Virus record (IMG/VR): IMGVR_UViG_3300049893_002485
Span: 1-30,282 of that record
Length of the DNA stretch: 30,282 nucleotides
Reading direction: 5' to 3' (one strand)
From: a virus
The notes under the pieces were generated by a model. The model was not told the DNA's origin, searched no databases, and was given only the letters and a program-made list of their open reading frames with translations. Made by a program: the position numbers and the translations under genes. Positions 27,014 through 30,253 of this stretch are shown one piece after another (position 1 is the first letter of the stretch; every line of letters starts with the position of its first letter).

Positions 27014-27901
27014 TTACGGGCCACGCTCTTCCTCTTGTCTTGCTTTGTTGCGCAGGAAGTCTCTGCGCACTAATACTTGTTGTGGCAAGCGCTTAGCTAC
27101 TTTTTGCCCCTGCAGATTCATCTCTTGAGTGATTCTCAATTCTCTCAGGTGCTGTAATACGTTATATACCGGATTTGCATAATACTGGATGACATATACG
27201 TCACCTTTATTCTCTGTCACATTAAAGGCCGGCGTTTGCCCAGGTATCCACTCTATATTGCCGTTAACAATATTGAAATTCACACCCTTCTGATATACTA
27301 CTAGGGCATCATCAACCGCCGAGGCGACATATTCAATATCAAACACAGGATATCTAAACTGTTGCTGATTGTTGGCTGTGGGTCTATATTCTTTTAGCTC
27401 CCACATGCGTACTTTAAAGTCAGGGATAATTAGTTGGTCGTAAGTATTGAATTCTGCTTGAGTTCCATCGGGATACTCTGTCGGTAGAGTGACTACTGCA
27501 GAACCAACTTCCCATAAGCCCTGATATTCAAAGTTCTTTTCTAAAGAATTACTATAGAATACACCCCATATCTCTTTTTCTGTGTAGAAGAGAAGACCAT
27601 CCTCACAGAGCGGACAATTTGGGTTATGGTTGTTGTCGAACACGGTTTCTATATTTGGACAGGGTGTTGCTTTCTTATGAATGAAGCGAATACCCCTATT
27701 CTGCAGCAACTGATCAAATGATACACCCTTGATACTTGGGTCTGGAATAAAGAGCGGCAACGGGGACTGTGTTGAGGTAGGAGAGGTTGGATATATTGAA
27801 CCGCTACCCGCAGAGCCACCGCCACCAAAACCGGAACCGGTCGGGGTGCTACCACTCAATGGTAAGCCAGTTGGGCCACAGTTGTCATTATCATTCGCCA
27901 T
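27014..27901 (-). CDS. Unrecognised protein with a Cys-rich knuckle, possible head-tail connector (295 aa)
   Basis: This is the first gene of the minus-strand virion cluster as seen here. The first ~55 residues are Gly/Ser/Pro-rich and disordered-looking. At residues ~80-102 are CPNIETVFDNNHNPNCPLC, with cysteines spaced C-x(14)-C-x2-C, and then a DGLLFYTEKEIWGVFYSN region, which could bind zinc or iron. The rest is beta-rich (PDFKVRMWELKEYRPT, YVIQYYANPVYNVLQHLREL) and ends in a basic helix (RVLVRRDFLRNKARQEE-like). Location before the neck genes suggests a portal-proximal or head-completion role, but I do not recognise the family. AGGA lies 5 bases before the ATG. Confidence 0.6.
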   Translation of the reverse strand: MANDNDNCGPTGLPLSGSTPTGSGFGGGGSAGSGSIYPTSPTSTQSPLPLFIPDPSIKGVSFDQLLQNRGIRFIHKKATPCPNIETVFDNNHNPNCPLCEDGLLFYTEKEIWGVFYSNSLEKNFEYQGLWEVGSAVVTLPTEYPDGTQAEFNTYDQLIIPDFKVRMWELKEYRPTANNQQQFRYPVFDIEYVASAVDDALVVYQKGVNFNIVNGNIEWIPGQTPAFNVTENKGDVYVIQYYANPVYNVLQHLRELRITQEMNLQGQKVAKRLPQQVLVRRDFLRNKARQEEERGP

Positions 27902-28021: not shown

Positions 28022-28228
28022 TTGGAAGACAGATATAAGAAGATACTTATAAAGATAGTGGAAAAGGAGGGCGATTGCCTCACCAATTCGCTATGTGATA
28101 ACTGTCCGTTTAGACTGAGATGTCTCCCTGAATTTCTGAATAAGAAGAGTAGGCCAACAAGAAAAGAGAGATACGAGATGGCGGCAGATGCTCTTGCAAG
28201 AATTGATCTGATGCTAGATATTAACTAA
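28022..28228 (+). CDS. Four-cysteine mini-protein, possible zinc-binding protein (68 aa)
   Basis: The centre reads CLTNSLCDNCPFRLRC, so four cysteines are spaced C-x5-C-x2-C-x5-C, fitting a small zinc knuckle. A basic segment (KKSRPTRKERYEMAADALARID) follows. The rest is helical and charged. I chose the TTG at 28022 because GGAG lies 8 bases upstream; an earlier TTG at 27992 has no good ribosome site. It is the first gene after the strand switch and lacks the motif of the array that follows. Function unknown; small Zn-binding phage proteins often act on host transcription or nucleic acids. Confidence 0.65.
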   Translation: MEDRYKKILIKIVEKEGDCLTNSLCDNCPFRLRCLPEFLNKKSRPTRKERYEMAADALARIDLMLDIN

Positions 28229-28294: not shown

Positions 28295-28567
28295 ATGGCT
28301 ACGCATAGAGTAGACAGCACAGAGAGGGCGGCTAAAAAATTAGCGCGCCTACTCATTCTTCTAAAGCGACTCGGGGTATTTGATGATGACCTACATATTG
28401 TCACTGGAGATATTAGAAGGTGCGTAGAGAACTGGAAGAGAGGTGTGTTTGAATCCAAGACCATTCCTGGAAATGCTACGTCTATTAAGAAAGCTGAAGG
28501 TGTACGAGAGAAGACTTCCCGGTCGAATAACGATAACAGTGTGGGAGAGATATTGTGGACGTGGTGA
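28295..28567 (+). CDS. Array protein 1, LLxxLGV motif (90 aa)
   Basis: This is the first member of the array of small proteins. The core motif is LARLLILLKRLGVFDDD at residues ~16-32, followed by a DIRRCVENWKRGVF helix. The C-terminal half is basic and Ser/Asn-rich, without hydrophobic clusters. The ATG at 28295 is preceded by AGGA 10 bases upstream. It overlaps the next gene by 13 bases. Function unknown; I know of no family with this plan. Confidence 0.65.
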   Translation: MATHRVDSTERAAKKLARLLILLKRLGVFDDDLHIVTGDIRRCVENWKRGVFESKTIPGNATSIKKAEGVREKTSRSNNDNSVGEILWTW

Positions 28568-28797
28568 GATGCGTTAAACTAGAGAACAACTACTGTGATG
28601 GCTATGATAGCGTCTTAGTGATGCACCTCATGTGTGTGCTATTTAAGCTAGGCGTCATACATAACGTTATTGCTCCGGTAAACTACGACATCGGTGCACA
28701 CAAGATGACAGTGTTTGCTGCAGACTATCTGAGAGGCAACCCTCACATCTTCATGGACCCAAAGAGTAGAAGAAGTAGGGATTATGACTTTTATTAA
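28555..28797 (+). CDS. Array protein 2, LLxxLGV motif (80 aa)
   Basis: It starts at a GTG (28555), with GGGAGAG 5-9 bases upstream inside the previous gene. The motif is VLVMHLMCVLFKLGVIHN at residues ~20-37; a second hydrophobic stretch (HKMTVFAADYLRGN) follows. It overlaps the next gene by 14 bases. Other in-frame GTGs at 28561 and 28564 are possible starts. It has one cysteine in the motif and two near the N-terminus. Function unknown. Confidence 0.62.
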   Translation: MDVVRCVKLENNYCDGYDSVLVMHLMCVLFKLGVIHNVIAPVNYDIGAHKMTVFAADYLRGNPHIFMDPKSRRSRDYDFY

Positions 28798-29026
28798 AAG
28801 TATGCTCGATATGGAGCGAATAAGGAAAGAGCAGACCCACAAATTCAAGAATGCTCAGCGCTCCCAGAGATTGTCGGCAATGTTTGATCTACTGATTAGA
28901 TTAAGGATAGTGGATGATGTGCGCGCGATGACAAACCCCATCTCGGCACAGTTTAACAGCCAGATGCTCGCCCACTTCCTAGTGGACAAATATTATAAGG
29001 ATCCTTCTCGCAGTGACAAACGTTAA
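28784..29026 (+). CDS. Array protein 3, LLxRLRI motif (80 aa)
   Basis: The ATG at 28784 has a GTAGGGA ribosome site. The first ~30 residues are charged (MERIRKEQTHKFKNAQRSQ), then the motif RLSAMFDLLIRLRIVDDV, where G of the LGV core is R. A helix (QFNSQMLAHFLVDKYYKD) closes the protein. It overlaps its neighbours by 14 bases on both sides. Function unknown. Confidence 0.65.
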   Translation: MTFIKSMLDMERIRKEQTHKFKNAQRSQRLSAMFDLLIRLRIVDDVRAMTNPISAQFNSQMLAHFLVDKYYKDPSRSDKR

Positions 29027-29192
29027 AACGCACAGAGTAAATATTCAGGGTATTCACCTTAAGGCTCAACTTTTAGCTGACATGCTTGAACTTTTGAATA
29101 TGCTTCTTCCAGAAGAACACTGTGGCTTCTTAGATAAGAGAGATGTTGAGATGTTTGCTCTTGAGATGGTTTGTAAACATGTAACCCGCTAG
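29013..29192 (+). CDS. Array protein 4, degenerate motif (59 aa)
   Basis: This short frame starts at a GTG (29013) that overlaps the previous gene by 14 bases and ends with TAG at 29190-29192. AAGGA lies 11 bases upstream. The motif region is AQLLADMLELLNMLLPEEH, where the LGV core has become LLP. A helical segment (DVEMFALEMVCKHVTR) follows, as in other members. It is supported by its place in the array, the same overlap length and the hydrophobic pattern; on its own it would be doubtful. Confidence 0.55.
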   Translation: MTNVKTHRVNIQGIHLKAQLLADMLELLNMLLPEEHCGFLDKRDVEMFALEMVCKHVTR

Positions 29193-29200
29193 GGTCGAAA

Positions 29201-29210
29201 GGGGGCCCCC
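29201..29210. repeat. Perfect 10-bp GGGGGCCCCC palindrome
   Basis: This GC-only palindrome lies in the 21-base gap before array protein 5, the only gap in the rightward array. It supplies a GGGGG ribosome site 8 bases before the ATG at 29214 and could also fold. Confidence 0.6.
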
Positions 29211-29213
29211 TCC

Positions 29214-29366
29214 ATGCACCAGTACAACTTAATCAGCTTAATGCGACTCATCAAACTCCTGTGGAAACTCCGTGTGGTGAATAGCTCAGATGTGTATAAG
29301 AATATAGTGAAACTAAGAGTGATGCAGAGAGATGCCGATGATGGAATTGGTGTACTTGAAAGATAA
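29214..29366 (+). CDS. Array protein 5, LLWKLRV motif (50 aa)
   Basis: This 50-aa frame starts at ATG 29214 and ends with TAA. The motif is LMRLIKLLWKLRVVNSS, very near the N-terminus, followed by DVYKNIVKLRVMQRD. It is the smallest member and close to the minimal motif. The next gene starts inside its last third. Function unknown. Confidence 0.55.
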   Translation: MHQYNLISLMRLIKLLWKLRVVNSSDVYKNIVKLRVMQRDADDGIGVLER

Positions 29367-29523
29367 GAGCACTAACAAACAGTATGTGTATATTGGCGAA
29401 GGCTTCAATAATACATGCTGGCACATCTTTTTCATCTTGATAAGACTGCGTGTGATAGAACAAGAACGACTCGACTTAATACGAAACAGCTATGGTTTAT
29501 ATGTGCGCTATGATAAACGCTAA
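29332..29523 (+). CDS. Array protein 6, LIRLRVI motif (63 aa)
   Basis: ATG codons at 29332, 29338 and 29341 are possible starts; an AGAGAG stretch (29326-29331) suits the second or third best. The N-terminal half is an extra strand-like part (YLKDKSTNKQYVYIGEG) found in no other member. The motif is CWHIFFILIRLRVIEQE, and the C-terminus (RNSYGLYVRYDKR) is basic. It overlaps the previous gene by 26-35 bases, depending on start. Function unknown. Confidence 0.6.
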   Translation: MPMMELVYLKDKSTNKQYVYIGEGFNNTCWHIFFILIRLRVIEQERLDLIRNSYGLYVRYDKR

Positions 29524-29701
29524 AGAAAGTTGGCTGAAGATGGAGTATCTACTCTATAGACTCGGCGTTGATACAGTGAATGCTGACGGCATGATGCGAA
29601 GAATCCTGTATGTATCGTTTATCGATGCATGTGAGAGGCACACCGGCATGAGCAATCCTTTCTACATAAATGGCAAGGCGGTAGACTACCATGAATTTTA
29701 A
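29510..29701 (+). CDS. Array protein 7, LLYRLGV motif (63 aa)
   Basis: I chose the ATG at 29510, which gives the 14-base overlap seen at other junctions; an earlier ATG at 29492 would add six residues. No good ribosome site is visible, so translation may be coupled. The motif is WLKMEYLLYRLGVDTVN near the N-terminus. It is followed by a helix (RRILYVSFIDACERHTG) and a short tail. Function unknown. Confidence 0.6.
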   Translation: MINAKESWLKMEYLLYRLGVDTVNADGMMRRILYVSFIDACERHTGMSNPFYINGKAVDYHEF

Positions 29702-29867
29702 TCGAACCACCCAGAAGCGAAGAAAACTCGACATCATAAGTGACTTCAATGAGCTCTACACCCTATTGCGCAAGCTCGGTGTACCGGTACCAGGTCCTGG
29801 CGTCGGCATCATGATGGCAAAATTTGAAGACGCAATTATTCGCTGGAGGGACGACGGTGGTCGCTAA
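29691..29867 (+). CDS. Array protein 8, LLRKLGV motif (58 aa)
   Basis: ATG at 29691 overlaps the previous gene by 11 bases; TAA at 29865. The N-terminus is basic (NRTTQKRRK). The motif DFNELYTLLRKLGVPVPG is among the clearest in the set, and a Pro/Gly loop (PVPGPGVG) leads to a helix (MMAKFEDAIIRWRDD). Function unknown. Confidence 0.6.
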   Translation: MNFNRTTQKRRKLDIISDFNELYTLLRKLGVPVPGPGVGIMMAKFEDAIIRWRDDGGR

Positions 29868-30081
29868 GAGATATCACCACGCTTTCTTGGCTGAGAAAGT
29901 GTTCAACGACCTATCTGACCTCATGGAGCTTCTTGAGAAGCTTGGCATCGTCAGCGGCATAAGCAAGCGTATCTCTCACCAACACGATGTCGTGTATCAA
30001 CTCACTCTTGAGAGTGTTGCTGGTCGCTTCACCAGAAGAGCCAACGAGAAAGCGTGGGCGGATGAGCACTCGGATCCCTGA
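29857..30081 (+). CDS. Array protein 9, LLEKLGI motif (74 aa)
   Basis: The start is placed at GTG 29857: GGAGGG lies 7 bases upstream, and the overlap with the previous gene is 11 bases. A TTG at 29824 would be a poor start. The motif FNDLSDLMELLEKLGIVSG is close to consensus. A polar strand-like segment (HQHDVVYQLTLESVAG) and a basic tail follow. Its last 53 bases overlap the end of the convergent gene on the other strand. Function unknown. Confidence 0.62.
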   Translation: MVAKRYHHAFLAEKVFNDLSDLMELLEKLGIVSGISKRISHQHDVVYQLTLESVAGRFTRRANEKAWADEHSDP

Positions 30082-30253
30082 TCTCCGCCTTCGAATGGCT
30101 ATCATTCAGTGCTATCTCCACCCACCCTTCTTTATTCAACAGTCGCCGATCAGTGACGCCGAGCTTCCTCAGTAGATCTACAAGATCAGACATCCTTGCG
30201 ATATCGGCGAGGTGCCTCGGCGTGGGGTTCTCTTTTGCAGTTCGCCTACTCAT
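30029..30253 (-). CDS. Array protein 10, LLRKLGV motif, opposite strand (74 aa)
   Basis: This minus-strand frame carries RMSDLVDLLRKLGVTDRR at residues ~21-38, the same motif as the plus-strand genes and nearly identical to array proteins 8 and 9 at the core. A strand-like WVEIALND segment follows. ATG at 30253 with TAGGC as a modest ribosome site. The motif on this strand, in this frame, supports the gene strongly against being a shadow frame. It converges on array gene 9 with a 53-base overlap of the 3' ends. Confidence 0.62.
   Translation of the reverse strand: MSRRTAKENPTPRHLADIARMSDLVDLLRKLGVTDRRLLNKEGWVEIALNDSHSKAEIRDPSAHPPTLSRWLFW

Follow-up and report, generated by a model that had tools for sequence, protein, structure and literature searches.

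The internal proteins of phage T4 are variable small proteins with one short docking sequence in common, the capsid targeting sequence, which is N-terminal and cleaved; they are packaged in the head and processed by the prohead protease. It is now known that bacterial immunity includes proteins that sense phage capsid and tail proteins. CapRel is a sensor of the capsid protein (PMC9712102), and DSR2 is a sensor of the tail tube protein, for which the phage protein DSAD1 competes with the tube (PMC11087589). Prophages and satellites, moreover, encode small blockers of tail assembly (Tab, PMC10884400; Tai, PMC11364771).

The locus described here lies in a 30,282-base virus record from a contractile-tailed phage, the whole of which is referred to as the window, and consists of an array of small genes whose products have a motif of about ten residues in common. 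It differs from the T4 system in that the motif is internal or C-terminal, starting anywhere from residue 8 to over 60 so that no common N-terminal sequence exists, and in that the flanks are virion segments, as seen in relatives. It may parallel the DSAD1-type inhibitors, in which a small phage protein occupies the sensor's virion-protein site (PMC11087589); DSAD1, however, is a single gene, without an array or a common tag. Tab and Tai may be parallels as well, being small accessory proteins that act on virion assembly (PMC10884400, PMC11364771), but they are single prophage or satellite proteins with a counter-protein and have not been described as arrays of a tag plus virion segments. The major capsid protein of Herelleviridae-like myoviruses (SPO1 and relatives) is about 30% identical to that of the present group, and a search of 50,697 phage records with a capsid-like array protein (L019:6545) gave no match. 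The libraries and the published, mostly open-access papers searched contained no description of a system built in this way.

The array in the window and its relatives

The tail sheath, a baseplate wedge protein, a NUDIX protein and the neck-type protein of the window are encoded on the minus strand. The neck-type gene, used as the anchor for the same locus elsewhere, is followed by a small conserved gene and then by the array (Table 1), which runs in the direction opposite to the structural genes. Array members frequently overlap by a few bases. Since the record stops 29 bases past the last member, the array is probably cut. The small gene between neck gene and array, the product of which is 59% identical to that of L002:7696-7902, adjoins most arrays; it was considered as a partner of the motif and rejected, its co-occurrence with arrays not being significant (p 0.07-0.22).

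Table 1. Features of the array locus in the window, and variant-tag ORFs of relatives (PWM, position weight matrix score)
Position	Strand	Feature	PWM	Remarks
27014..27901	-	Neck-type virion protein		phrog_1004, E 1.1e-18; adjoins array
28022..28228	+	CPFRxxCLPEFL protein, conserved neighbour		Landmark between neck-type gene and array; no array member
28295..28567	+	Member 1, LLILLKRLGV (residues 19-28)	21.0	Orthologous to L002:7418-7624 (blastp E 1.5e-6)
28443..28577	+	Member, MLRLLRKLKV	20.4	GTG start; overlaps 3' part of 28295..28567 in a different frame; 43% over 30 aa with L015:4781-4960, E 1.6e-4; absent from the original prediction
28555..28797	+	Member, LMCVLFKLGV	13.3
28784..29026	+	Member, MFDLLIRLRI	13.3	Probable ortholog of L002:7218-7421 (blastp E 0.01 over 69 aa, matching position)
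29013..29192	+	Possible member, degenerate LADMLELLNM	6.7	Chance level alone; counted by position
29214..29366	+	Member, LIKLLWKLRV	21.0
29332..29523	+	Member, IFFILIRLRV	8.4
29492..29701	+	Member, MEYLLYRLGV	15.5
29691..29867	+	Member, LYTLLRKLGV	21.1
29824..30081	+	Member, LMELLEKLGI	21.1	TTG-started ORF; start uncertain, a start codon further in being as likely
30029..30253	-	Member, LVDLLRKLGV	23.7	43% over 42 aa with L002:7066-7215, E 1.7e-4
L036:4816-5016		Variant tag, tube segment
L125:11124-11336		Variant tag, tube segment
L156:5960-6184		Variant tag, capsid segment
L083:16973-17149		Variant tag, sheath segment

The original prediction listed ten motif-bearing ORFs here and proposed that a profile of the motif be compared with chance. 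All ten ORFs were recovered in their places. A position weight matrix was built from 243 motifs, with the window and L015 left out. Nine small ORFs of the window scored 12 or higher with it, and every one of them lies inside 28295-30253; 0.21 would be expected from shuffles of the window's 229 small ORFs. The array is real, with some corrections: the nine high scorers include one ORF not named among the ten, the ORF at 29332 scores lower, and that at 29013 does not rise above chance. Eleven members are counted in the window, the degenerate one included.

A search with the neck protein yielded 66 contigs/loci, and at least three motif ORFs were present in 21 of 30 non-redundant loci. In G001, the closest long relative (167,515 bases), 33 motif ORFs lie between the same neighbours, and a scan of its 1,058 small ORFs gave none outside the array locus that reaches this motif score. 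The genomes of G003 and G005 have further motif genes scattered across them, and the arrayless G009 and G011 have 2-3 motif matches each, about the chance level. Locus L015 contains six motif ORFs, its structural proteins being for the most part 74-85% identical to the window's; the number of members thus varies (6, about 10 and 33) despite mostly 74-85% identity of the structural proteins, and the array is supported as an accessory, highly variable locus. No isolate phage carrying the array was found among the phage records searched. In the remote isolates DAC23 (whole genome) and Mx1 (one 16.7-kb stretch) the motif is absent, with one weak ORF in 773. Since the only MAG contigs that contain a relative are those labelled Saprospiraceae and Cytophagales, Bacteroidota hosts are our guess.

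A ten-residue motif in fast-evolving genes

The motif columns consist of two hydrophobic residues, any residue, L/F, L, any residue, K/R, L, often G, and V/I, with other positions weak at best. Column counts show that only about ten residues are common to the members. This agrees with the original prediction in so far as the rest of each protein was held to be unlike the others, but a second helix, also predicted, could not be recognised as a conserved feature, little being common beyond the ten residues. In L002 the motif forms the last 11 or so residues of 17 members, after a variable beta-rich part. Because only ten residues are common and these are internal or C-terminal, the motif behaves as a short linear motif and not as a domain. 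One motif family, K2 (L019:8383-8652 and 16 homologs), has a wing-like pattern after the helix and usually lies near the neck gene.

In line with the earlier view that no described family has this arrangement, no acceptable match was found in Pfam, PHROGs or NCBIfam. In Pfam the array proteins stayed below the curated cutoffs, the best being DUF7647 (17.3 bits, cutoff 27) and LAGLIDADG_3 (16.9, cutoff 22.5); in NCBIfam none came near any curated cutoff; and in PHROGs the best E was 0.02 (threshold E<=0.001). A profile search of solved structures gave nothing significant (best E 0.65, MecA adaptor). AlphaFold returned a weak model of one capsid-like member (pLDDT 70, pTM 0.26), in which the motif is a helix and for which Foldseek found no match; the model of the capsid protein (pLDDT 53) was too poor to place segments in three dimensions.

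Selection was assessed, as the original prediction had proposed, by dN/dS across related phages. For two ortholog pairs of array members from L016 and L037, dN was 0.26 and 0.24 and dS 1.34 and 1.25, giving dN/dS of 0.20 and 0.19. The dN of the structural neighbours was 0.03-0.08, that of the array members being three to nine times higher. Since dN/dS is about 0.2 and dN exceeds that of the structural neighbours, the array genes evolve fast under purifying selection, and the members are real, fast-evolving proteins.

These values bear on the idea that what is conserved is an element of the DNA or RNA inside the ORFs, such as a recombination site or processing signal, and not a protein feature. 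As such an element would have it, nothing but the motif is conserved, and genes evidently turn over by recombination; but synonymous codon use at the conserved L, K/R, G and V positions is about as variable as it is genome-wide, and dN/dS is about 0.2. We give this explanation almost no credence, and a DNA-level element was rejected because of the free choice of codons at the motif.

Virion-protein segments beside the motif

In relatives, the flanks of the motif often match virion proteins of the same phage group, i.e. sheath, capsid, tail tube and baseplate wedge. HMM matches of flanks to virion families of this group (among them the major capsid protein, identified by phrog_752, the portal by phrog_12, the sheath by phrog_279 and the baseplate wedge by phrog_6) numbered 6 with real and 0 with shuffled sequences at E<=1e-6, and 15 and 1 at E<=1e-4. 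In profile-profile comparisons, sheath (2e-10), capsid (1e-4) and baseplate (1e-3) took the top three places of 660, and all three scores beat 1320 shuffled comparisons (best shuffle 3e-3). The motif was present in 17 of 31 small ORFs with a virion segment, against a background of 2.3% (Fisher p 2e-20, relatedness not corrected for). A flank matching a virion protein is present in 17 members from 10 relative loci. Flanks in G001 match capsid (8e-7), tube (4e-5) and portal (6e-5).

The following segments are worth noting: 1) Sheath residues 1-19 stand with the motif in five phages. 2) Capsid residues 49-75 are represented in L002, L078, L138, L154 and L156 (in L156 with a variant tag); L223 has such a segment as judged by eye. 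3) A capsid 231-267 segment occurs in a family of ten. 4) The tube N-terminus is found in several members, and a baseplate wedge segment occurs too. The parts are variously combined: L019:7126 begins with what looks by eye like a sheath start, followed by the motif and a tube segment, and L154:7231 of the motif and capsid 49-75. A variant tag, CSCP...LLHKLLH, stands on tube, tube, capsid and sheath segments in four phages. Since the flanks are different virion segments, three of which are found with a single variant tag, the members look as if assembled by recombination. The original prediction of repeated duplication followed by fast divergence can be kept for the divergence, as the dN/dS values show, but not for simple duplication, as only the ten-residue motif is common and the flanks come from different virion proteins.

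In the window itself, the small ORFs beside the neck gene carry the motif. No flank of any member there has a significant virion match. The sequence GNPHIFMDPKS in 28555..28797 looks like the capsid 231-267 type on inspection by eye alone, and a capsid similarity of this ORF was rejected as not significant and no better than shuffles. The putative chimeric build is thus claimed from relatives at the same locus, G001 among them, and not from the window.

The sheath-like segments have 9-12 of 19 residues, but few codons, in common with the phage's own sheath gene; they are therefore old and have been kept at the protein level. L002:3185 is closest to its own capsid protein and has the same codon as the own capsid gene at 9 of 12 identical residues, so that capture may be continuing; for the other capsid segments the own capsid protein is not clearly closer than others. 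Copying of 5' ends for their expression signals was ruled out, since the capsid 49-75 and 231-267 segments are internal, and a tube origin for the whole beta-rich set of L002 (1673-4632) was unsupported by profile comparison. Separately, L167-L170 (G018:140658, G016:81128, G020:128838 and G017:17529) contain frames of 332-572 aa, 1-3 kb from the capsid gene, which have residues of about 13-65 of the N-terminal part of the capsid protein in common.

The sequence L-x-K-L-G-V is frequent as a helix C-cap, and the helix might be a mere folding element of an old, extremely diverged family, with the virion similarities due to chance or gene debris. Several array families lack virion similarity, as this explanation would allow; profile comparison gave no virion family match for the recurrent wing-like K2, Cys-rich K7 and other families. 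It accounts poorly, however, for a motif that is far above chance and, in G001, local to this locus, for virion segments that beat shuffles and associate with the motif, or for purifying selection and sheath-like segments conserved as protein despite different codons, and we regard it as decidedly unlikely.

Possible roles of the array

One tag attached to segments from several virion proteins points to an address combined with an effector contact that the members share, and the accessory, fast-changing content of the array fits a role in conflict. The reading that we prefer, with rather less than even confidence, is that the locus encodes modular 'tag plus address' accessory mini-proteins, possibly decoys or adaptors against virion-protein recognition. 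Such arrays would arise if phages captured segments of their own virion genes and joined each to the common helical tag, a route that we propose tentatively. The virion-like segment would be the address, binding whatever normally binds that virion protein, and the common helix would bind one partner common to the members, or block activity. Acting as decoys or adaptors, the set would prevent virion proteins from triggering the host's sensors for them, and the array would turn over rapidly as sensors change.

Decoys against factors recognising virion proteins may be the most likely function, although we would put this somewhat short of an even chance. They are our first choice because sensors of capsid and tube are known and DSAD1 competes at the sensor's virion-protein site; a counter-defence role is what we infer for the array. 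Against decoys, one that bears the epitope could itself trigger the sensor. Other points that speak against the reading are that the window's own members have no significant virion segment, that several recurrent array families match no virion family, that the segments are not clearly closer to the own capsid protein than to others, and that the search of solved structures gave nothing like the motif. If the reading is correct, sensed proteins carried in pieces on one tag would serve generally, and exchangeably, as a counter-measure or as a weapon against competitors, the list of segments would point to virion regions important for sensing or assembly, and the combination of tag and virion segment would be a search rule for further cases.

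A different and more doubtful use of the same segments would be interference with assembly, in which they enter capsid, sheath, tube or baseplate interfaces and poison assembly, with the helix as poison or recruiter and with co-infecting relatives, or the phage itself at the wrong time, as target. The segments derive from self-assembling proteins and belong to conserved parts of them, and Tab (PMC10884400) and Tai (PMC11364771) are precedents from prophages and satellites for small blockers of tail assembly. But the segments match the phage's own proteins about as well as others, so that self-harm would have to be avoided, and no immunity gene was identified.

The members might instead be virion-bound cargo, small proteins docked by segment or helix on or in the assembling particle for delivery to the next host, in the manner of the T4 internal proteins. 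A short common helix on unlike, fast-evolving small proteins is the expected look of a docking peptide, and the locus adjoins structural genes; we nevertheless consider cargo unlikely, as the window array is opposite in direction to those genes, the motif lacks a fixed position, unlike an N-terminal targeting sequence, and a common cleavage site was not seen.

Several other genes were observed in relatives. Most of them have one or several members of family F06 (L015:829-1371; ..NWLRKDKRLNGG..KNPGSRAG..) close to the array. In G001 the sheath and tube genes flank an ORF of the endonuclease VII/HNH-like family F07 (L002:14490-15530), which the window lacks there. G001 encodes its own GroEL-type chaperonin (L006:17696-19411, phrog_5725). 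A 195-aa protein with a motif-like helix, LVDLLAKLGLKQPSA, is encoded near the GroEL gene at L077:3549-4136 and L110:6505-7095, these being two homologs only.
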